Shown here: one piece after another, positions 9,900-25,871 of the stretch
How the letters are laid out: each line of letters begins with the position of its first letter
Numbering within the stretch: the stretch's first letter is position 1
Virus record (IMG/VR): IMGVR_UViG_3300033153_004940
Span: 1 to 28,273 of that record
Length of the DNA stretch: 28,273 nucleotides
Strand: one strand, 5' to 3'
DNA from: a virus
Made by a program: the position numbers and the translations under genes
Notes under the pieces: model-generated
What the model saw: only the letters and a program-made list of their open reading frames with translations
Databases searched by the model: none
Told to the model about the DNA's origin: nothing

Positions 9900-10156
9900 A
9901 ACGACTCTTCATTATCGGTCTGGTATGTGGATTCTGTTTTATAGGCTGTCAGCAACAGTCAGTACAGCAAAAGAAAGCAGAAGAAATGAAGGCTAAAGGC
10001 AAAGCCACAATGAAAAACGTTGTCAAACAATTAAAAGCTAACGAATGGGTTAAACGAGGTGATTATTGGGAAGACCGTAGCGGTACAAGGTGGATGGCAG
10101 TAATAGCCGATAGTACAGGGGCTGTTATTATCAGGCGTCAAAAAAATGAAAAATAA
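9896..10156 (+). CDS. Predicted lipoprotein
   Basis: The product has 86 residues. Lys-Arg, a hydrophobic stretch and the lipobox FIG-C at about residue 18, followed by Gln-Gln, indicate a lipoprotein; Gln after the Cys fits outer-membrane sorting in a diderm. Next comes a charged helical linker (KKAEEMKAKGKATMKN) and a small C-terminal beta unit (DYWEDRSGTRWMAVIADSTGAV). Lipoproteins inside phage late operons are often superinfection-exclusion or lysis factors; neither can be shown here. It is coupled to the previous gene by ATGA, and its 3' end overlaps the start of the giant repeat protein by 11 bases. Confidence 0.65.
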   Translation: MKRLFIIGLVCGFCFIGCQQQSVQQKKAEEMKAKGKATMKNVVKQLKANEWVKRGDYWEDRSGTRWMAVIADSTGAVIIRRQKNEK

Positions 10157-13100
10157 ACTATTCTTACTGGTACTACTGTTTACCTTTGCCCATGCTACCA
10201 CCGGCTGGTATTCGGATCGGGTAGTTAATCGGGCTGGCATAGGGCAGTATAACGCCAAGGTAGAGTTGCGTAGCTGGGATGACACCACTACTACAGACTA
10301 TTACGATACTACTAATAGTGATGGGGAATGGGGTCTTACCATAGAGGCTAATGACTATGGAGTCTTTATAGATTCTGTATATCAGGCTAGGTTTATATTT
10401 GTACCTGATATAATGGGTAATATAACCTTCGGCTTTAACATTACCGATACATTGAGGGTGCAAACGTTAAGAGTAGATTCGGCTTTTTACTTTCCTAACG
10501 CAGTACCTGATTCGGCCAAATTTGCTCAACACGCAGATACAGCGGCTTATACGTCTACTGTTGCGGATAGTACCAGGGCTGCACGTAAAGCGGATTCGGC
10601 TTATATCTGGTCGGCTTTTGCTGATAGTTCACAGGTAACGGACACCGCCACAATAAGCCTTTATTCTGATACTGCTGGGGTGAGCGATACAGCTACGTTA
10701 GCCTTATTTGCGGATACAGCCGGTGTGTGCGATACATCCACTACGGCTTTGTATGCTGATACTGCTGGTGTTTCGGATACATCCACCCTAGCTTTATACG
10801 CTGATACAGCCGGGGTAAGTGACACATCTACTACGGCATTATACGCCGATACCGCTGGGGTATCAGATACAGCGACGCTGGCTTTGACCTCAGATTTTGC
10901 GGAAACTAGTAGGGTTTCAGACACATCGACTTTAGCTCTTTATGCCGACACAGCCGGAGTATGTGATACTGCAACGCTTTCCCTTTATGCTGATACGGCG
11001 GGGGTGAGCGATACTGCAACGCTAAGTTTGACTTCTGATTTTGCTGATAGTGCCGCTGGGTCTGCCCGTTTAGGTGGTCGTTCATTAGGCACATCCGGTG
11101 CGACTGTACCACTTTTAAATGGTTCGAATACCCATAGCGGAACGAATACGTTCTCTGGTGTTTTGTCTGCTACCGGAAGTTTATTAGCAGGGTCAAATAT
11201 AATACAGGTTGTTGGGTATTCTTCCAGAGTTCCGCGTCTTGGTGCTGACACTTTGTACGATTTCGCTAATAGCGATTTAGTAGCCTTAATCAAAAATACA
11301 GACATTATATTTAGTGATTCGATATATGCCGTTATTGCTGAGTTTGATTCCCTGCACAGTACAGCTATTAAGGGTGCTTCCGGTTGGATAGATTCAGCAT
11401 CGGTCACTAATTTCGCAGATACCGCAAGCGGGGCATTAAGGCATGGAGGGTACTTAATAGGAACCTCTGGGGGTACTGTACCGCTTTTAAACGGGACTAA
11501 TACGTTTAGCGGAACGAATACGTTCTCTGATTCCAATGCCTTTACTGTTGCAATATATGTTAATAGAAGTGAAATAGACACCATAAGGGGCGATACCTTA
11601 AACTTCAACGATGGTCATTTTGAACATGCCGAAATTGATACCGTACATGGTGATACCCTTGATTATAACGATGGTCATTTTGAGCATTTAAGCGCAGACA
11701 CCGTACATGGTGATACGTGCGATTTCCTTAATGCAAGGCTTGATACGTTGTCAGGCGATACAGCTAATTTTAAGCACATAGTTGCCCAGAAGATATATGC
11801 CGATACCATAGGTGGAGTTATAGACACCGGATCAGTTACCAATTTTAAGGTAACTAAACTGTATAATGGTGCGGCCTTATGCGCCTTACTAGAAACCGAT
11901 AACATGACTATTAGCGATTCTTTAGAGACAAGGCACGTGGTAGCTGATAGCATTTATGGGTTTATAGTCAGTGGTACAGGGTGGGTTGATTCAGCACAGA
12001 CTTGTAATTTTGCCGATACGGTTAGTGGTGCTTTGAGACATGGTGGTTATCTAATAGGAACATCCGGCGCTACTGTTCCGCTTCTAAACGGCACGAATAC
12101 CTATTCTGATTCAAACGCCTTTACCGATGCCGTCCTGATTGAACTGGGTCGGCTGGATTCGATTCGAGGCGATACTCTTGATTTTGATGATGGAAATATT
12201 ACGACCATTTACACGGGAACAATAAACGACAATGGTGGCGGTACTATTACAATGGGGAATACAACACGATGGGGGACGGGCAATCACATACAAATAGCAT
12301 CTAACACCATTACTGACCAAGGCGGAACAGGGACTATATATTTTAACGCCTCACAATCTGGCAATCCATCTGGGCCGTCAGCAAAAGTCTACGGCATGGC
12401 TGTAGAAATAAATGCTGATGGTGACGGTGGTGATTTGACTCTAGGGGCAGTCGACGATGCGACATTTACCGTAGGAGATCAATTAAACCTTTTGGCCGGT
12501 GCTACTGATACTGTAAATGTAATAAGGGGTTATTTCTCAGCAGATACAATTATCAATGGATACATAAAAGACTTAGACGGTTGGGTGGATAGTGCCGTTA
12601 CCTGTGATACTGCTACAACGGCTCTATATGCTGATACAGCAGACGGGGCTTTATATCTGCAAGGGTTCCAGATTGGAGTAGCGGCAAATAAAGCCCCTGG
12701 TGATTCGCTTGTGTTGGCTTCTGATACTATTACCTGGAGCGCACCGGCTACATTCAGCGACGTAATTATCTTTAGTGACTCTGTACAGCTTAGTAGTGAT
12801 TTGGAATTAACAGGTGTATTATTGAGTTCTACACCAGATACGGTTTTAGTGATAAGCGCAGATGACGCTTTGTTTCATGGTGAAGTCACTGTAAGGGAAA
12901 GTCTCTACGTAACAGAGGGGGGTAGGTTTAACACTGATTTAACGGTTGACGATTCGTTGTCTGTTAACGACATAGGGGTAGCCCATATAAGGGCTGATAC
13001 TATTCGGGGTGATACGGCTAATTTTACTCATGGAGATTTTCAAAAGATATATGTTGATACTTTAGTGGGCGGTTCACCGGTATATGTAGAGGACAGCCTA

Positions 13101-13607
13101 AAATGCGATGGGGTTATATATGCCGAATCGCTTGTGGTAGGTAGTTATTTTGCACATACTGTCCCTCACGCTTATATGTGGTTTACCGATTCAAACTTTA
13201 CTCTTGCGCTTTCAAAAGACGAAACTGTTATCGTAACCAATAATGTACAGGCTAATCTTTGGGACACTCTCGGCACTCCCGGTATGACGTGGCTGGACAG
13301 TGGTTTTTTAGAAATGGACGTGGCCGGTCATTGTGAATTTACTGGCATATTAAGCGCAACCGTTACATCAAATAATGACAGCCTTGAAATAGGGTTTATG
13401 AAGAAAAATGCCGGTGTTTATTCGTGGTGTTTGGGTCATGTGGATTGGGCACCTCAAACAACAAAATGGACTGATCCGGTTCCATTTATGGCAGATTGTG
13501 ATGTATCTGTAAATGATACGGTATGTGTAGTAGTAATTAACCGCCACGACGATGATGATATAACGCTTATCACCGGATCATGGCGAGCCAAATGGATACA
13601 CCCATAG
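10146..13607 (+). CDS. Giant exported repeat protein, fibre or adhesin-like
   Basis: The product has 1153 residues. It has a signal peptide-like start (KNKLFLLVLLFTFAHA), then a beta domain like a surface-protein linker (AKVELRSWDDTTTTDYYDT). Residues about 174-310 hold 15-residue repeats (DTAGVSDTATLALYA). Next come three TVPLLNG-NT copies (near 11087, 11460 and 12057), typical of phage fibre text, with 20-residue GDTLDYNDGHFEH units between the second and third. The last 150 residues (LEIGFMKKNAGVYSW, ending WIHP) resemble a C1q/TNF-type jelly-roll head. The layout suggests a trimeric shaft with a binding tip. A cleavable export signal is unexpected for a virion fibre, so it may be displayed by the host cell. 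The size and position inside the head module are striking. Confidence 0.75.
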   Translation: MKNKLFLLVLLFTFAHATTGWYSDRVVNRAGIGQYNAKVELRSWDDTTTTDYYDTTNSDGEWGLTIEANDYGVFIDSVYQARFIFVPDIMGNITFGFNITDTLRVQTLRVDSAFYFPNAVPDSAKFAQHADTAAYTSTVADSTRAARKADSAYIWSAFADSSQVTDTATISLYSDTAGVSDTATLALFADTAGVCDTSTTALYADTAGVSDTSTLALYADTAGVSDTSTTALYADTAGVSDTATLALTSDFAETSRVSDTSTLALYADTAGVCDTATLSLYADTAGVSDTATLSLTSDFADSAAGSARLGGRSLGTSGATVPLLNGSNTHSGTNTFSGVLSATGSLLAGSNIIQVVGYSSRVPRLGADTLYDFANSDLVALIKNTDIIFSDSIYAVIAEFDSLHSTAIKGASGWIDSASVTNFADTASGALRHGGYLIGTSGGTVPLLNGTNTFSGTNTFSDSNAFTVAIYVNRSEIDTIRGDTLNFNDGHFEHAEIDTVHGDTLDYNDGHFEHLSADTVHGDTCDFLNARLDTLSGDTANFKHIVAQKIYADTIGGVIDTGSVTNFKVTKLYNGAALCALLETDNMTISDSLETRHVVADSIYGFIVSGTGWVDSAQTCNFADTVSGALRHGGYLIGTSGATVPLLNGTNTYSDSNAFTDAVLIELGRLDSIRGDTLDFDDGNITTIYTGTINDNGGGTITMGNTTRWGTGNHIQIASNTITDQGGTGTIYFNASQSGNPSGPSAKVYGMAVEINADGDGGDLTLGAVDDATFTVGDQLNLLAGATDTVNVIRGYFSADTIINGYIKDLDGWVDSAVTCDTATTALYADTADGALYLQGFQIGVAANKAPGDSLVLASDTITWSAPATFSDVIIFSDSVQLSSDLELTGVLLSSTPDTVLVISADDALFHGEVTVRESLYVTEGGRFNTDLTVDDSLSVNDIGVAHIRADTIRGDTANFTHGDFQKIYVDTLVGGSPVYVEDSLKCDGVIYAESLVVGSYFAHTVPHAYMWFTDSNFTLALSKDETVIVTNNVQANLWDTLGTPGMTWLDSGFLEMDVAGHCEFTGILSATVTSNNDSLEIGFMKKNAGVYSWCLGHVDWAPQTTKWTDPVPFMADCDVSVNDTVCVVVINRHDDDDITLITGSWRAKWIHP
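10668..11081 (+). repeat. 45-bp tandem repeats within the giant fibre-like gene
   Basis: Unit starts fall at 10668, 10713, 10758, 10803, 10848, 10893, 10947, 10992 and 11037. The period is 45 bases (15 residues), with one 54-base variant at 10893. Each unit encodes a version of DTAGVSDTATLALYA. Codons vary at third positions, so the protein repeat is conserved more than the DNA, which suggests selection for structure. One isolated copy recurs near 12609. Confidence 0.9.
11577..11756 (+). repeat. 60-bp tandem repeats within the giant fibre-like gene
   Basis: Units start at 11577, 11637 and 11697, with a shorter 45-base unit at 11697 before another GDT unit at 11742. They encode versions of DTIRGDTLNFNDGHFEHAEI. 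A related unit occurs near 12985. The 20-residue period fits a beta-helix or beta-prism shaft turn (inference). Confidence 0.82.
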
Positions 13608-16622: not shown

Positions 16623-17594
16623 ATGGAAACTTTAAAAGGTTTTGAGGATTTTTTTGATCGTAACTTTACCGACCTTGCGAATGACGGGGAAGTAGTTGCC
16701 CCGGCTATGCATAAGAGGCTGGCAGCGGTTGAAATGGTTACAGACAGGATTGTTAAGGGTTCTGCTGTTTCGGGTTTGAATAAGGCCCAGCATACAGGGA
16801 CTTATGCCGGTTATCAGTCTGACGATCCGGTACAGATGTACGATTTTACGGTTGAGCAGTACAAATGGACTCAGAGCGTGGTAATACCGGAAGCGGTTTA
16901 CAAGTACGCTAACAGCCCTCAGTATTTGGTTGACCAGTACCGGGAACGTGGTGACCTGTCCGAATTGGGCATGTCTTTTAGCAAGCAGATAGATGACGAA
17001 TTGGCAGGGTATTTCAACTCTACCAATATGGTTAGCACCTCTGCTCCTTATGCTACTCCCGATGGTGCGGCTTTATGTTCAGTGGCTCACCCTATAAATC
17101 CTAATCTAGCAACCACCTATAACACTAATCTTTCGACTTCTTCGGGTCTGTCCTATGCTAACGCAGAATCCGTGTTACAGCAGATTGGCGAGATATCGGA
17201 TTTCCGTAATCATCCGGCTGAATTACAGCAAAAGTACCAAATGTTCATGATGGTGTGTGGACAGCAGGCCGGTCTTGCTCGTCGAATAGTTCAGACGTTA
17301 GGTGTTAATAACTCTCGGGCCGGGGATGCAAATAGTGACCGGAACGTACTCCCGTTAATGGGTTTGCAGTCAGAGCCTATTATATGGAGCCGGATTGGTA
17401 ACCGTTATCAGGGTGCCAATGACACGACTTGGTTTATAGTTATACCTAAGTTATCTTTCAAGGTTTATCGTAGTTCAAATATCGAGTACAAAGCCTGGAT
17501 TGACGAGGATACGGATGCTCTGCATTTTGGTGCAAAAGCATGGTATCGTCTAAAACTGGTTGATTGGCGAGGCGTTTATGGTGCAACAGCATAA
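16623..17594 (+). CDS. Major capsid protein (Mu-type, HK97 fold)
   Basis: The product has 323 residues. It has the layout of a Mu-like major head subunit: a helical N-arm (TLKGFEDFFDRNFTDLAND), a beta section with FTVEQYKWTQSVVIPEAVY, then the conserved ATPDGAALCSVAHPINPN and the C-terminal NRYQGANDTTWFIV, FGAKAWYRLKLVDWRGVYG. The HP loop and the WRG-like end match this family from memory. It forms the icosahedral shell. GGAGG at 16607-16611 lies about 11 bases before the ATG. Scaffold and decoration candidates precede it. It is shorter than HK97 because no delta domain or protease-cut N-terminus is present. Confidence 0.83.
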   Translation: METLKGFEDFFDRNFTDLANDGEVVAPAMHKRLAAVEMVTDRIVKGSAVSGLNKAQHTGTYAGYQSDDPVQMYDFTVEQYKWTQSVVIPEAVYKYANSPQYLVDQYRERGDLSELGMSFSKQIDDELAGYFNSTNMVSTSAPYATPDGAALCSVAHPINPNLATTYNTNLSTSSGLSYANAESVLQQIGEISDFRNHPAELQQKYQMFMMVCGQQAGLARRIVQTLGVNNSRAGDANSDRNVLPLMGLQSEPIIWSRIGNRYQGANDTTWFIVIPKLSFKVYRSSNIEYKAWIDEDTDALHFGAKAWYRLKLVDWRGVYGATA

Positions 17595-17604
17595 GGAGGC
17601 TAAT

Positions 17605-18945
17605 ATGAAAAAGCTGATTATAGTTGCTTTATGTCTCCTGATAGCTGTGCCAGCGTTTGCCGCTCACACAGAGGGGCCGATAAATGTAGACCGTGTCGTA
17701 ACCGGCAGCAATAACTACGGTGAAGACCCGAATCCTACCAAGGATATCACTTTGGCAAATGACGAGAATATCGACAACAGTACTGACGGCAACATTGTCA
17801 TTACTGCTGATTCTGTGGTAGCCTCGGCGGTATTGCGTATCGGAACCGATTTGGTGGCTGGCTCTGATATAGTCATTACCGAAGACTTGTCAATAGGTGA
17901 CAATATCACCGCTTTAGATAGTATCAACTCGTCATTCGTAGTAGATGGCGATTTGACTATGGATGCTCTGGGTGATTTGCTGGTTGAGGTTATTGACAGC
18001 CTAGACACTATCTATGCCAAAAACGATCTGGTAACTATCGAATCTGACCTTAAGGTAATAGACGATTTAGAGGTCGGGGCTGATTTGACAATTGGTGATG
18101 ATATTGTTGCCTTGGATCGTATTAGCGACTTAGACAGCATAACCACAAGCTTTGTAATACGTGGCGATGTTAAGCTGGGAACGTTAGGCGATTTGCTGGT
18201 TGAGGTTATTGACAGCCTGGATACTATCTATGCTAAAGCAGATTTATTGGTTATCGAATCTGACCTTAAGACAGTAGACGATTTAGAGGTCGGGGCTGAC
18301 TTGACAATCGGTGACGATATTGTTGCTTTGGACCGCATATCGGACCTAGACAGCATTACCACTAGTTTTACTATCACTGGTGATGTGACGATGGGAGCGA
18401 GAGGCGATTTGGAGATAGAAGTAATTGACAGCCTAGATACCATTTATGCCAAGAATGACATGCTCTATATCGAGTCTGACCTTACCATTTTAGGTGACGC
18501 TTATATAGCCACCGCAGTTCAGGTGCCAACTATCGATTCGCTGGCTACGATTTATGCGGCTGGTGACACCTGTACGTTTAATGAAAACGTAAAGGTTACG
18601 GGTGACATAGAGATTGACGGCCAGGGTGTGCCGGTTGTTGTTAATTCCGGTGGTACTGATTCGCCTGTTATCCAATACGGGGCGTTAACCAATCCTACGG
18701 CGGTTGACACGATTCATTTCCCGCAGGCATTTACTACGGTGGGGGGGCTGTTCTTACAGGCTAGTTACGGCGTCACCGATAGTACTGTTATATGGTCAGT
18801 TGACAGTATTAGTGCCACAGTGGAGACAACGGCATATATCCATTGCGATTTACTGCTTCCAACGTCAGCAGCTGACACCTGCTTGATACGTGCTAAAACA
18901 ACAGTTGATGCTTCGACGCTGTATTGGCAGGCAATAGGTAACTAA
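17605..18945 (+). CDS. Exported tandem-repeat beta protein
   Basis: The product has 446 residues from ATG 17605, which has AAGGAGG just upstream; a longer frame from 17560 would run into the capsid gene. The N-terminus KKLIIVALCLLIAVPAFA is an almost ideal Sec signal peptide with AFA-A cleavage. The body is made of 72-residue repeats (LLVEVIDSLDTIYAKNDL, LEVGADLTIGDDIVALDRI, SFVIRGDVKLG), strongly acidic and beta-like. The last 90 residues differ (FPQAFTTVGGLFLQASYGV) and may be a head domain. It follows the capsid gene by only 10 bases. A secreted repeat protein in this place is unusual. It could be a host-surface protein or a fibre whose export is needed for assembly. Confidence 0.72.
   Translation: MKKLIIVALCLLIAVPAFAAHTEGPINVDRVVTGSNNYGEDPNPTKDITLANDENIDNSTDGNIVITADSVVASAVLRIGTDLVAGSDIVITEDLSIGDNITALDSINSSFVVDGDLTMDALGDLLVEVIDSLDTIYAKNDLVTIESDLKVIDDLEVGADLTIGDDIVALDRISDLDSITTSFVIRGDVKLGTLGDLLVEVIDSLDTIYAKADLLVIESDLKTVDDLEVGADLTIGDDIVALDRISDLDSITTSFTITGDVTMGARGDLEIEVIDSLDTIYAKNDMLYIESDLTILGDAYIATAVQVPTIDSLATIYAAGDTCTFNENVKVTGDIEIDGQGVPVVVNSGGTDSPVIQYGALTNPTAVDTIHFPQAFTTVGGLFLQASYGVTDSTVIWSVDSISATVETTAYIHCDLLLPTSAADTCLIRAKTTVDASTLYWQAIGN
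17971..18486 (+). repeat. 216-bp tandem repeats in the exported beta protein gene
   Basis: Full units start at 17971 and 18187, and a partial third at 18403; spacing is exactly 216 bases (72 residues) each time. Units 1 and 2 are clearly similar at the DNA level, differing mainly at third positions and a few short patches. A more divergent part-unit precedes 17971. The pattern suggests growth by unequal recombination. Confidence 0.9.
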
Positions 18946-19713: not shown

Positions 19714-20104
19714 CGTTGATGGGACGGGCTATATAACCGTTGATGCCGTTGACACCGCTGCTTCTGACACTATTAACGCAGCTGGCTATCCGTATCCAAG
19801 TATTGAGATATGGGCAGTACAGGATGGGGATAGTGTTGCTTTTGACAGTATTTGTATATTAGCCACGCTACAACCAAGGGGCAATACATCGCCCATGACT
19901 GTTGCGAGTGATGTTAATCGTAGCAAAGCATGGTCAAAGGTACGGGGTGCGTGGACGCTGCTTAATTATACTGCTGGTGACCATGAGATAATTTCTTTAT
20001 CCATGCCCAAAATAGAACGGATTATAGTACGGGCTTATAACGGGGCTAGTGCCGATAACGGGACAAACTCAAAGCTATACTTTACTCTAAACCTGGGACC
20101 ATGA
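19619..20104 (+). CDS. Small exported beta protein
   Basis: The product has 161 residues. KKLLMFLLLTSVALS is a good signal peptide with cleavage likely after SQ. The mature part is beta-rich, Asp/Thr/Ala-rich and short on cysteines (VDAVDTAASDTINAAGYPY, LYFTLNLGP). The style resembles the neighbouring exported repeat proteins but without tandem repeats. GGAG at 19608-19611 lies at good distance from the ATG, supporting a start deep inside the previous gene. It is followed by another exported protein. I recognise no family. Confidence 0.62.
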   Translation: MKKLLMFLLLTSVALSQMMLGERDSRIIQGHDVDGTGYITVDAVDTAASDTINAAGYPYPSIEIWAVQDGDSVAFDSICILATLQPRGNTSPMTVASDVNRSKAWSKVRGAWTLLNYTAGDHEIISLSMPKIERIIVRAYNGASADNGTNSKLYFTLNLGP

Positions 20105-20118
20105 AAGGGGGTAATATC

Positions 20119-21159
20119 ATGAGGAAATTACTCCTATTAGCTTTATTGATTACCCCTATATTTGCTCAATGGGATAGGGGTGTACGGGACTCTGTAAGGG
20201 CCGCTAGTGTAGCTGACAGCCTGTTAAGCTTCGATAAGGACTCTACATGGTCTAAGATTATAGTTGATACTATAGGTGCTGGTGACAGCCTGTTTATAAC
20301 GGCTCACACTCGTATTACCAAGTCTGTAACGGTTGATTCTACGTTTACGGTTAGGGGTTCTACAATAAAAGCAGATACCATAGATGATTGGGATGACGGA
20401 TTTATAACCATAAAGCCTACTGTGACCATAAACGGCTCTCTTTATGTAAATACAGCGGTTATAGACACCCTTGATTCGTTGCGTATTATAAGGCCAACAG
20501 ATGACTCTCTAAGTGTTTACGGGGTATTAGAGGCTGATGATTTGCTTATCAATAATGATATAGTAGTTACTGGTGATATTGATTCGGTGGATAACGTAAG
20601 GACTAAACGCCTGTATGCTGACTCTGCTAATATTGACACGGTTAATGGGAATATCGTCCTCAGCAACAAGACCACTCTCGATGATACTCTACAGGCAAAT
20701 GGGAGATTTAGGTCAACACAATATTCGAAATACGAAGGTGTGATATTTTTCAACGGACTAAACGTCAACTTGGGGGGGAACGGTGATTCGCTCTATTTGT
20801 ATGATGGTACTCAGCCCGATACGGGTCATGCTTATATAGCCGAAATAATTCCCACATACAGCAAGGGTGGTGTTGCCGTATTAGACACTATAACGGTTAA
20901 TTATACGGTTCAAGACAACGATGATGACTGGGATTTTTATCTCATGGCCTCGTCTGGTGGCGGTGGGGCAACTAGGGTTGACTCGCTCAAGGCGTTGGGG
21001 GAAGGGGCTACGGGCAACTTTACGTCTGGCAATATGTTGGCGGCAGACCGCACAATGAGTAACGGATACGGGTATTTTTTAAGGGCAATGCTAAGAGATT
21101 CTGATGTTGACCGTGACATCAAGATAAATCAAATTAGAATTATATACCATCGGGAATAA
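20119..21159 (+). CDS. Exported beta-repeat protein, fibre-like
   Basis: The product has 346 residues from ATG 20119, which follows GGGGG; an ATG at 20101 would add six residues. RKLLLLALLITPIFAQ is a clear signal peptide. The mature part uses the same style as the other exported proteins: DSLFITAHTRITKSV, VDSTFTVRG, ADTIDDWDDGFITIK, VNTAVIDTLDSLRII, irregular strand-turn units with DT and GD turns. The end (YFLRAMLRDSDVDRDIKINQIRIIYH) looks like a compact C-terminal head. Together with the 1153- and 446-residue proteins it makes a set of exported shaft-type proteins in the virion gene cluster. It may be a fibre, adhesin or cell-surface product; not settled. Confidence 0.68.
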   Translation: MRKLLLLALLITPIFAQWDRGVRDSVRAASVADSLLSFDKDSTWSKIIVDTIGAGDSLFITAHTRITKSVTVDSTFTVRGSTIKADTIDDWDDGFITIKPTVTINGSLYVNTAVIDTLDSLRIIRPTDDSLSVYGVLEADDLLINNDIVVTGDIDSVDNVRTKRLYADSANIDTVNGNIVLSNKTTLDDTLQANGRFRSTQYSKYEGVIFFNGLNVNLGGNGDSLYLYDGTQPDTGHAYIAEIIPTYSKGGVAVLDTITVNYTVQDNDDDWDFYLMASSGGGGATRVDSLKALGEGATGNFTSGNMLAADRTMSNGYGYFLRAMLRDSDVDRDIKINQIRIIYHRE

Positions 21160-21919: not shown

Positions 21920-22921
21920 ATGAGCGTTTACGGAGTAAATAACACCAAGTATGGTATAGTGCAGGAAACCGCTGCCGGGACTGCTATAACTACCGGGGAC
22001 AATCTTTTGTTAACCACCGAAAGGGAGATTAACATAGAGAATGGCATGACCCTCAATAATACCCGAAAGGCTACGGGCTTAAGCTATCAAACGGCTGGTG
22101 ATGGGAATGATTTTATTATGACCAACCAGTTGCCTACCGTTACATTGCCGTTTCATTGTAATACTGATAACATGGTTCTGTTGCTGGCTAGTCTCACCCA
22201 AAACCCGTCAGAGAGTGGTTCTGGGCCTTACGTAGTGCAGTACGACCCCTATACGACTACTGCAATGGGACAGATAGAGATAGGTGATGCCAGTGATTTT
22301 TACACGTTTACCCTGCTTAAGCAGAACGAGTCCGGCGTTACATTGAGCGAGTCTTTGGCTGGTTGTGTGGTCAGGAGTATGACTATTACTAGTGGACAGG
22401 GTGACCCAATATCGATATCTGCTGAAATCGTAGGCATGGTATACGATAGCCAGGTAGACTTGTCTGGGCTGGCTTCTTTTACCGCCTTTGACACCAAGGT
22501 CAAGTTACATAGCGATTTAACAACCAAGTTTGCCGGTAACAGCTTTGATCTGCTTAACTGGTCTATGACTATCACTAATAACGTTATACCGGTGTACGGA
22601 CCCAACCAGACCCCTCAGAAGTGGCTATTTGGCCCTCTGGACATCACTTTAGAGGCTACATGGCCTTGGACATCAACTGACTATAAAGCCGCTATAAAGG
22701 CAGATACGGACTATCTGTTTGAGGCTTACAGGGGTTCTCAGGCTGGTTCTAGTAACGGTGACATATCCTTTTTAAGTAACTTTGTACCTGATAACATACC
22801 TACCGGCAACCAAGATGAGATGAAAATCCATACGATTACCGGAGTGGGTGCGTATGACGGTACTAATGCCGCTTTACAGATTATCTTAGGCAGTACAGGC
22901 GATAGATTAACAGCAACTTAA
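21920..22921 (+). CDS. Major tail tube protein
   Basis: The product has 333 residues. AGGAGG with a good spacer precedes the ATG. The protein starts GVNNTKYGIVQETAAGTAITTGDNL, in the manner of tail tube subunits, then shows beta-rich text with ALASLTQNP-like and GQGDPISISAEIVGM segments that fit the stacking ring fold. It polymerises into the tail tube, with the chaperone and tape measure as partners, and these are the next genes. No sheath gene is seen, which supports a non-contractile tail. The tube identity rests on order and general pattern. Confidence 0.68.
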   Translation: MSVYGVNNTKYGIVQETAAGTAITTGDNLLLTTEREINIENGMTLNNTRKATGLSYQTAGDGNDFIMTNQLPTVTLPFHCNTDNMVLLLASLTQNPSESGSGPYVVQYDPYTTTAMGQIEIGDASDFYTFTLLKQNESGVTLSESLAGCVVRSMTITSGQGDPISISAEIVGMVYDSQVDLSGLASFTAFDTKVKLHSDLTTKFAGNSFDLLNWSMTITNNVIPVYGPNQTPQKWLFGPLDITLEATWPWTSTDYKAAIKADTDYLFEAYRGSQAGSSNGDISFLSNFVPDNIPTGNQDEMKIHTITGVGAYDGTNAALQIILGSTGDRLTAT

Positions 22922-22940: not shown

Positions 22941-23399
22941 ATGATTGAAACGTCTGGAAAAGATTACGATACAACTTATCCGTATGTATTAGAGTGTGAC
23001 AGGCTAGAACCGCTTGAAAATCAAACAACCTATAATCTTAACCTGTTGAGGCCAGAGCGTAACAACTATTATGTTAGCCGGTTTGCCGATTGTGCCAAAC
23101 AGCAGGGGTCAAGGAATAACAAGCTAGACCATAAAAAGTTTACCCTTGTGGAGAATGACCGCCTAATGGACATAGTTGACAACGTAGAGAATGTCAAAAT
23201 TGATGGGACAGTAAACAAGAAAGTTGACAAGTCTGGCGATAGAGCGCTATTGCTTAAACATCTTACCGACCTGGACAGCAAGAAGCGAGACGAATTAGCA
23301 GAGGCTGGCTCGGATATGGCAGCAATGAGTGAGGGGCTAAAAAAAAACTTGCCTATCTCGCATGGTTCGCCCTCTGGCGAACAGAGCACAAGCGATTAA
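22941..23399 (+). CDS. Tail assembly chaperone, unshifted form (gpG-like)
   Basis: The product has 152 residues in normal reading. The charged soluble protein (LVENDRLMDIVDNVENVKIDG, LLLKHLTDLDSKKRDELAE) lies between tube and tape measure genes, where phages keep the chaperone that loads tube subunits onto the tape measure. GGGAGATAACC precedes the ATG. After codon 133 the frame meets the run of nine A's (23339-23347) and then ends 17 codons later, so both this product and a longer shifted one are expected. I recognise it by position and by the frameshift more than by sequence. Confidence 0.72.
   Translation: MIETSGKDYDTTYPYVLECDRLEPLENQTTYNLNLLRPERNNYYVSRFADCAKQQGSRNNKLDHKKFTLVENDRLMDIVDNVENVKIDGTVNKKVDKSGDRALLLKHLTDLDSKKRDELAEAGSDMAAMSEGLKKNLPISHGSPSGEQSTSD
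23342..23348 (+). promoter_or_regulatory. -1 frameshift slippery heptamer A AAA AAC
   Basis: In the zero frame of the chaperone the codons are CTA AAA AAA AAC, so the heptamer A AAA AAC ends at 23348, a classic -1 slip site. A perfect 7-bp hairpin, GTTCGCC (23365-23371) with GGCGAAC (23376-23382) around a CTCT loop, follows 16 bases downstream and could pause the ribosome. A -1 shift opens a frame to 23821 with no stop. Confidence 0.85.
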
Positions 23400-23821
23400 G
23401 ATTATATGATTGTGATGTCTGCCACGCGGATAAGTACAGATGTGATCGTGGTTGTTTCTTAGAAGAGGACACCTTAACCGTAGAGTATACTTTTAAGGGT
23501 GAAACCGAAAGGAAATCCGTTGACCTAGAGGGGTTGTGGGAGATAATAGGGGAACTATACGAAAGTGAGCCAAGCAAATCAATATTTCTGCACGTTGACC
23601 AAATGCGGGTTGTTCTCGGGGATAAGCCGGGATTTGTATGTCCCACGTCGATTGTTGACCCGTTTTGTGACAGACTACTCTTATATGAAACATCTTTTGA
23701 AAAGTACGGCGTTGATTTGTTTTCGTTAGACTCATTTTTAGTAGAAGCACTCGCCATTATCAACACTACCCGAAACCAGTATGATGAATTTCAATACTTA
23801 GCCAAGCATGGAAACAAATAA
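23348..23821 (+). CDS. Tail chaperone -1 frameshift extension (gpGT-like)
   Basis: After a -1 slip the frame reads LAYLAWFALWRTEHKRLRLYD, then CDVCHADKYRCDRGC, then continues without a stop for 157 codons to TAA at 23819-23821. The fusion with the first 136 residues would have about 293. An independent start in this part is unlikely: the first in-frame ATG or TTG with a ribosome site lies well inside and the upstream part is uninterrupted. The two Cys pairs suggest a small metal site. In lambda-like phages the extended form binds the tape measure while the short form binds tube subunits; I infer the same here. The stop is joined to the HNH gene by TAATG. Confidence 0.8.
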   Translation, partial: LAYLAWFALWRTEHKRLRLYDCDVCHADKYRCDRGCFLEEDTLTVEYTFKGETERKSVDLEGLWEIIGELYESEPSKSIFLHVDQMRVVLGDKPGFVCPTSIVDPFCDRLLLYETSFEKYGVDLFSLDSFLVEALAIINTTRNQYDEFQYLAKHGNK

Positions 23822-24054
23822 TGCCACTACGTAAATCAGCAGGGCGAAAGGCGGAGAGCCGGGAACGTGGAGTCAGGGCAAGGGCTAGAAGTGTGGCTAT
23901 TAAGAAGTTCGGTCAATCAAGGGTTAGCGGTATGGATGTACACCACAAGAACGGTAACAATAAAGACAATAGACCTAGTAATTTGAGTCTTAAAGCTCAC
24001 GGCTTACACGCAAAGAAACACGGCAGGGGTAACGGTAGGCGAGGTAAGAGATAA
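23821..24054 (+). CDS. Small HNH-type nuclease
   Basis: The product has 77 residues and is very basic at both ends. The core MDVHHKNGNNKDNRPSNL (residues 38-55), followed by His60 and the final His67 of LHAKKH, is the HNH beta-beta-alpha-metal pattern: His-His, the Asn of DNRPSNL, then His. Such proteins cut DNA; here the size is minimal and it may be a free-standing homing-type nuclease or a packaging helper. It is joined on both sides by TAATG to the frameshift product and the tape measure. HNH genes are more usual next to terminase genes. Confidence 0.75.
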   Translation: MPLRKSAGRKAESRERGVRARARSVAIKKFGQSRVSGMDVHHKNGNNKDNRPSNLSLKAHGLHAKKHGRGNGRRGKR

Positions 24055-25871
24055 TGGGTAGCACAATAGCAAAAAAACTCAAGATGATAGTTAGCATTAA
24101 GGGTGCGGCTAAAGTAATGAGCAGTATTAAGAAAATAGCCGAGGGTATATTCTTTATTGGTAATGCCGCTAAAATGGCAGTAGGGTTTATTCAGAGGCTG
24201 ATTTCTCCCCTGACAAATTTTACCAAAGAGGGTATTAAAAACAATATTATGTTGGAGCGCATGAACCTCACCCTTGAGGTGGTGATGAAATCTGCCAAAA
24301 AAGCAAAAGATATGTTTGCCTGGGTTCGTGGCTTTGCGGCTAGAGTGCCTTTTGAACTACAATCGGTATTAAATGCGGCTACTGTTTTAGAAACCTACGG
24401 ACTTAATGCAAAAAAATGGATGGGCAATATTGCCAATATGGCGGCTGTTATGGGTCGAGACATAACCGACGCTTCACAGGCTATCGCTAATTTGTTGCAG
24501 GGCGAGGGTGAAATGATGAAGCGGTTTGGTGCTACCCGTCAGACCTTAATGAAATACGGTTGGTCTGGACTTTACAAAGACACCCAACAACTTGTAGTAG
24601 CTGTTAACAAGTTTATGATAGACAAGTTTAAAGACGGTACAATAAAAATGGCTAAAACTTGGGATGGTGTTATATCCATGTTCAAGGACAAATGGTTTTC
24701 GTTTACTGCCGGGGCAACGTCAGAATTGTTTGAAAGTTTTAAGGATACAATGAACAGTGTTAACGATTTTTTAAGCAAGTACGATTGGGAACAGATAGGA
24801 CGAAACTTTATTAAAAACTGGCGATTAGTGTGGGATACCATGAAAAAAATAATGGTCATGTCTGTCAAATTAGGATGGACCCAGACTATTGATTGGCTTA
24901 AGGGCGAGGGTTTGGCTCTGTTGTGGGGGTGGGCTAAAAAGGTGCTTGATGTTATGGGAATGATAACCAACCCCGCAGAATTAGCAAGGCGTGGAATTAA
25001 GGCCACGCATGGTCTAATTAAACGAATTCTGTTTGGCAAAGATGCAGAAAAAGCAGACCCAATCGAAGATTATAAAAAAGAGGTAAAGCGTCTTGTAAGT
25101 GACTTGTTTGGAGAGTTGTCAAAGGGTGCGGCTATCGTCGTTGGTGGTGAAGCAACGGGTGGATATTTCCGGGGCGGTACTACGGGTGGTGGGGGTCCAG
25201 CGTCGGACAGTGGAGAAAAAAAGCGATTAAAAAAGCTAGAGGAATATTTTCAATGGAAACAAGATATTTACGATAAAGCTGTTGAAGATTGGTATACGGC
25301 AGCAGAAAAAGAAAGAGACTTAAGGGAAAAATGGTATCAAGAGGGTGTGGCGATATATAAAAAAGAATTGCAACAAATTCAAGACATGACTAATTATGTA
25401 TCACAGGCTTTTGTGTCCATGTTCGATGTTATTTCGGTCAACGCTAATTCTACAGAAAAACGAGTGCTTAGTTCGTTGACTGCTATTACTAGCGCTGTTC
25501 CGCAAGCGCTCAGCTTAATGCATAAACTAAAACTGGGTGACATAACGGGTGGCATGTTTGGTTTTGGTATAGCCGGTTTGGGTCTAGGCTTAATCGGTAC
25601 GCTGATGGGTCAGTTTAAAGGTGACAAAGAATCCGAGGAATCTGCTAAAGAAGCCCGTCAGGAGCGACAGATAAGACGCTTCGGCAGTACCACCAGGGCA
25701 ACCCCCATGAATGTCACCATAGCCCCGGTAGTAACGATTACAGGTGAATTAATCAACTTAGGTGAAGACGGAACGGTAGCCGGTGGTAGAATTTTCGACC
25801 TCTTAATTAACGCTACGCAAGAAGCAGTTGAAACAGGTGAAATGCAGGGAGTGATAGGAGCGGTTATATGA
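24054..25871 (+). CDS. Tape measure protein
   Basis: The product has 605 residues. The start is coupled by TAATG to the HNH gene. The N-terminal half is helical and Met/Lys-rich (IKNNIMLERMNLTLEVVMKS, SQAIANLLQGEGEMMKRFG), as in tape measures that contain a RING-like phage domain (AARVPFELQSVLNAATVLETYG). A long coiled coil follows at about residues 385-450 (LREKWYQEGVAIYKKELQQI), then a Gly-rich membrane-type segment (MFGFGIAGLGLGLIGTLMG). It sets tail length. At about 0.15 nm per residue, the family rule, the tail would be near 90 nm. It ends by ATGA with the next tail gene. Confidence 0.85.
   Translation: MGSTIAKKLKMIVSIKGAAKVMSSIKKIAEGIFFIGNAAKMAVGFIQRLISPLTNFTKEGIKNNIMLERMNLTLEVVMKSAKKAKDMFAWVRGFAARVPFELQSVLNAATVLETYGLNAKKWMGNIANMAAVMGRDITDASQAIANLLQGEGEMMKRFGATRQTLMKYGWSGLYKDTQQLVVAVNKFMIDKFKDGTIKMAKTWDGVISMFKDKWFSFTAGATSELFESFKDTMNSVNDFLSKYDWEQIGRNFIKNWRLVWDTMKKIMVMSVKLGWTQTIDWLKGEGLALLWGWAKKVLDVMGMITNPAELARRGIKATHGLIKRILFGKDAEKADPIEDYKKEVKRLVSDLFGELSKGAAIVVGGEATGGYFRGGTTGGGGPASDSGEKKRLKKLEEYFQWKQDIYDKAVEDWYTAAEKERDLREKWYQEGVAIYKKELQQIQDMTNYVSQAFVSMFDVISVNANSTEKRVLSSLTAITSAVPQALSLMHKLKLGDITGGMFGFGIAGLGLGLIGTLMGQFKGDKESEESAKEARQERQIRRFGSTTRATPMNVTIAPVVTITGELINLGEDGTVAGGRIFDLLINATQEAVETGEMQGVIGAVI

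Follow-up and report, generated by a model that had tools for sequence, protein, structure and literature searches.

The frameshift that joins the G and T reading frames of tail chaperone genes, its mechanism and its low rate are known in lambda and in other tailed phages (PMC5009743), and frameshift rates of 6–7% have been measured for other phage chaperone genes (PMC3711429). In lambda, according to the account of gpG/gpGT relayed in PMC5009743 (Xu, Hendrix and Duda, 2004), the gene pair lies between the tail tube and tape measure genes, the −1 shift takes place late in the first ORF, and a long −1 extension is made as a minor product. The locus described here has the same placement and the same layout, and would likewise make its extended protein as the minor product. 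It is very probably a tail chaperone gene of the lambda G/GT type, in which a −1 slip within A9C, nine A's followed by C, would yield a short and a long form. The first-pass annotation had proposed a programmed frameshift of this type, and the proposal is supported by gene order, the reading frame, the slippery site, coding potential, the absence of an internal start and related tail loci.

The window, meaning the whole stretch of DNA that was analysed, is an entire IMG/VR virus record of 28,273 bases. It carries tailed-phage structural genes, including those for terminase, portal, head-morphogenesis homologues, tail tube and tape measure. The genes around the proposed frameshift are as follows.

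21920..22921, plus strand: tail tube protein, Phage_tube_2-like (Pfam PF18906, E 3.8e-6, 27.1 bits against a cut-off of 27)
22941..23399, plus strand: zero-frame tail assembly chaperone (G-like), 152 aa, between the tube and tape measure genes
23821..24054, plus strand: small HNH endonuclease-like ORF, 77 aa (phrog_7545 HNH, E 1.6e-12; PF13392 above cut-off)
24054..25871, plus strand: tape measure protein, 605 aa (phrog_973, E 5e-9)

The order tube, chaperone, tape measure is that of lambda-type G/GT genes, with the 77-aa HNH ORF in between. Pfam and BLAST bear out this order as first annotated, but the ORF at 23821 encodes the HNH protein and the tape measure gene begins at 24054. The tape measure protein is 32% identical over 201 aa to that of TP-84 (E 1e-27). 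The chaperone ORF has a codon log-odds of +0.20 bits and weak local similarity to chaperone ORFs immediately 5′ of tape measure genes (best E 0.017, locus L076); it matches phrog_16833, whose function is not known, at E 0.023 and a profile of related chaperones at E 3.4, and a PDB search with it returned no relative.

Elsewhere in the window, ORFs at the left end of the contig (2–562, 894–2174, 3948–4517 and 4475–5200) comprise two formyltransferase-like ORFs, a B12-binding radical SAM protein and a methyltransferase-like ORF, the last called from reading the sequence alone; together they may form a cassette for sugar or surface modification. Three large ORFs with signal-peptide-like starts lie among the head and tail genes (10146–13607, 17560–18945 and 20101–21159), the first of which contains short repeats (ADTAGVSDTATLALY).

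The proposed shift involves two features within and downstream of the chaperone gene.

23339..23348, plus strand: slippery run A9C, read directly; its heptamers recur in related loci
23348..23821, plus strand: −1 frame extension (T-like domain), 157 aa, with an open frame, coding-like codon usage and no early start

On re-reading, the run matched the first description base for base: nine A's occupy 23339–23347, C23348 ends the heptamer, and the zero-frame codons are CTA AAA AAA AAC. The heptamer named as the site, A_AAA_AAC (23342–23348), is present, and a second, overlapping heptamer, A_AAA_AAA (23339–23345), is also in frame. Its description as canonical holds for eukaryotic ribosomes, and A_AAA_AAC was the commonest heptamer in the survey of tail chaperone loci described below (11 loci), but it is far less shifty than A_AAA_AAG in E. 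coli (PMC5009743).

The zero-frame stop lies at 23397–23399, 17 codons past the slippery codons, giving an ORF of 152 codons in total. The −1 frame is open from 23333, after a TGA stop at 23330, to a TAA at 23819–23821 that overlaps the ATG of the next ORF at 23821. The 157 open codons reported earlier, running to the next gene start, were verified, and have a chance probability of 2.6e-5 from base composition; the longest −1 opening within 27 other window genes is at most 74 codons. Past the zero-frame stop, codon-usage log-odds favor the extension frame (+0.126 bits/codon), all five others scoring below zero, which marks the extension as coding. Scanning the −1 frame from 23333 found no ATG, GTG or TTG before 23534, so the part containing the first Cys cluster requires a change of frame. 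Inserting one A joins the two parts into a single frame of 293 residues, the fusion length given earlier, consisting of 136 chaperone residues and the 157-aa extension. An in-frame heptamer late in the first ORF and an overlapping −1 ORF that lacks its own start thus occur together here, as in lambda-type G/GT genes.

Three candidate or predicted stimulatory features flank the run.

23365..23382, plus strand: perfect 7-bp hairpin GTTCGCC-CTCT-GGCGAAC, read directly; upper part of a longer stem
23358..23395, plus strand: predicted compound stem-loop, MFE −14.8 kcal/mol, starting 9 nt past the heptamer
23327..23335, plus strand: Shine-Dalgarno-like element GAGTGAGGG, a putative 5′ stimulator (anti-SD duplex −8.4 kcal/mol)

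The 7-bp hairpin is as first annotated, but the spacing of 16 bases given for it is not, since the predicted fold adds UCGC/GCGA and UG/CA pairs to the hairpin and the longer stem begins at 23358, 9 nt from the site. This distance fits the 5–9 nt described for many −1 stimulators (PMC5009743). Perfect stem-loops with at least 7 bp and loops of 3–8 nt are listed seven times in the window, twice at one locus, and 23365–23382 is among them; against shuffled sequence the stem is marginal (z −1.7 to −1.9, P 0.064). Pairing of GAGTGAGGG with the anti-SD sequence is as strong as that of the chaperone gene's own ribosome-binding site. Pairing of the CTCT loop with AGAG at 23383–23386 to form a pseudoknot was ruled out on geometry, as it would have no loop nucleotides.

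Neither viral contigs nor cultured phages yielded a close relative when searched by way of the extension, the tube, the tape measure, the portal or a flanking DNA pattern; prokaryote genomes likewise gave no close relative of the extension, and no other contig covering the A9 site was found, so that a single contig spans it. Capsid relatives (L002–L005) are distant, at 23–26% identity, and the longest of them (L004) ends about 2 kb past the capsid gene. Because no close relative was found, the comparison was made with distant tape measure relatives, in a sample of 47 non-redundant tape-measure loci with the +1 frame as control. An in-frame X_XXY_YYZ heptamer with a −1 extension reaching the tape measure start is present in 31 of the 47, compared with 4 of 47 for the +1 control, which supports a −1 shift. 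The zero-frame tail is 17 codons in the window, and in most relatives with an A run the stop falls within 2–3 codons. In the surveyed relatives, the extension mostly runs straight to the tape measure start; in the window, the HNH ORF (23821–24054) lies between.

Loci were chosen by heptamer and frame, and structure played no part in the choice. RNA structure just 3′ of their sites (mean z −0.97) is stronger than at other offsets, where z is −0.1 to −0.65 (p 0.007). Pairing with the anti-SD immediately 5′ of the sites likewise exceeds that in the rest of the same genes (p 5e-4). Compared across phages, as first suggested, downstream structure is usual in relatives with Cys-type extensions (mean z −2.4); the window stem has the marginal z given above.

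In the proposed mechanism, most ribosomes would complete the 152-aa chaperone (G), and a minority would step back one base on A9C to make the 293-aa fusion (GT). Two tRNAs would probably re-pair on A_AAA_AAC, giving a KKN-LAY junction, or on A_AAA_AAA, giving KKK-LAY; the stem-loop 9 nt 3′ of the site would aid the slip, and the upstream SD-like stretch perhaps would too. By analogy with lambda, the G part would coat the tape measure and the T part would recruit tail tube subunits, with the G:GT ratio important for tail assembly. The tail tube protein encoded at 21920..22921 is the likely partner of the extension.

The main alternative is that RNA polymerase, rather than the ribosome, slips on A9, so that transcripts with one extra A are read into the extension. 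A 10-A transcript would encode an uninterrupted 293-aa protein (...KKKLAYLAW), of the same length and with the same KKK-LAY junction as a ribosomal shift at A_AAA_AAA; no other homopolymer in the window is as long as A9, and runs of nine A's or T's slip in bacteria (PMC5009743). However, loci of the same layout have interrupted heptamers or short runs (A6C, A6G, G_GGA_AAC and T_TTA_AAG) on which the polymerase should not slip, and the downstream stem and SD-like stretch fit ribosomal slippage, which makes polymerase slippage improbable. Still less probable is a sequencing or assembly error, with a true genome of ten A's and one continuous 293-codon gene: homopolymers are prone to such errors and one contig covers the run, but the break would then fall exactly where related phages shift frame, at the same heptamers, and neither the stem nor the SD-like stretch close by would have an explanation. 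Production of two separate proteins, with the extension made from its own start or by reinitiation, hardly merits belief, as the TTG at 23534 opens a 95-codon in-frame ORF but 23333 to 23534 holds no ATG, GTG or TTG and a start at 23534 would drop 62 residues including the first Cys cluster.

The extension begins with a Cys-rich segment.

23411..23455, plus strand: first Cys cluster, C-x2-C-x6-C-x3-C (CDVCHADKYRCDRGC), which aligns with C-x2-C...GC of other −1 extensions
23639..23644, plus strand: Cys-Pro of the extension (GFVCPTS), the C and P columns being invariant in a seven-sequence alignment

The first-pass annotation called the Cys-rich piece unusual, but −1 extensions at this position in other loci have similar Cys spacing. 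C-x2-C, C and CP follow in order at the extension start, the motif covering extension residues 22–99, and 84 of 100,000 shuffled sequences have the full motif. The Cys-rich start of the T part may be a metal-binding knuckle.

Ten other distinct −1 extensions have most or all of C-x2-C...C...CP, two of them from cultured phages. They include L021, L023, L037 and L067 (the last without the second Cys), and protein-similarity searches with extensions of this type led to Rhizobium phage L338C and Microcystis phage Mae-JY22 and to L096, L101–L103 and L105 (L103 lacking the second Cys and the CP proline). In all of the loci reached by these searches, the extension starts at an in-frame heptamer within the chaperone gene. 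No Cys-type extension matched a Pfam or PHROGs model tried, nor did those searched against NCBIfam match a model there, and an L037/Mae-JY22 extension alignment found nothing in prokaryote genomes. In L338C (L090:2456–2836) and Mae-JY22 (L091:2453–2788), the extensions are annotated as separate hypothetical proteins with starts that are too late; these ORFs look like missed frameshift fusions.

The window extension likely resembles this Cys-type family, although sequence statistics leave its membership unproven. Compared with Cys-type relatives, it has about 50 additional residues between GC and CP. With profiles of related chaperones and extensions, neither half of the window gene was significant; against a profile of the other Cys-type extensions, the window extension had an HMM score of 7.2 (E about 1 in 3,936 sequences, not significant), hhalign gave a probability of 8%, and no Pfam or PHROGs model matched. 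AlphaFold models of the extension (pLDDT 49.6) and of its relative L101 (pLDDT 57.5) are too poor for a fold search or for reading a metal site. At L010:2256–2995, the locus with the closest tape measure, a chaperone ORF and a −1 frame ORF are Cys-type-like, passing the family profiles weakly in both halves (E about 0.002), yet have neither an XXXYYYZ heptamer nor the Cys motif. It is tentatively suggested, as a possibility rather than a favored conclusion, that the extension belongs to an unnamed metal-binding T-domain family (C-x2-C...C...CP), carried by tail chaperones only via −1 frameshifting, usually where an A-rich heptamer is followed by a strong stem, and missed by annotation because it has no start codon of its own.

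The proposed reading extends G/GT frameshifting to an uncultivated phage for which no close relatives were found, and draws attention to a Cys-type extension found again at ten or more other distinct loci. Metal binding by the Cys cluster, if real, would provide a concrete way to study how the T domain, itself poorly understood, brings in tail tube subunits.

Among described systems, the g-t genes of halovirus HCTV-2, an archaeal siphovirus, also shift by −1 at A_AAA_AAC, in the same pair of genes (PMC5009743), the comparison here covering site and gene pair. Rhizobium phage vB_RleS_L338C (KF614509, L090) resembles the window in having a −1 extension with DCSTC...RGC...RCP 5′ of the tape measure, but its site is G_GGA_AAC. 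Mae-JY22 (PP438414, L091) shares with the window a chaperone ORF, the A_AAA_AAC site, a near-identical SD-like stretch upstream (GAGTGAGGC) and a −1 extension with C-x2-C, C and CP, which in Mae-JY22 lies directly 5′ of the tape measure; unlike that of the window, its extension is 112 aa long and lacks the insert of about 50 residues between GC and CP, and there is no significant overall similarity. The frameshift cassette of E. coli dnaX, like that of the window, combines an SD-like element, an A-rich slippery heptamer and a downstream stem, but dnaX is an unrelated gene with an A_AAA_AAG site, and the SD spacing in the window looks shorter.
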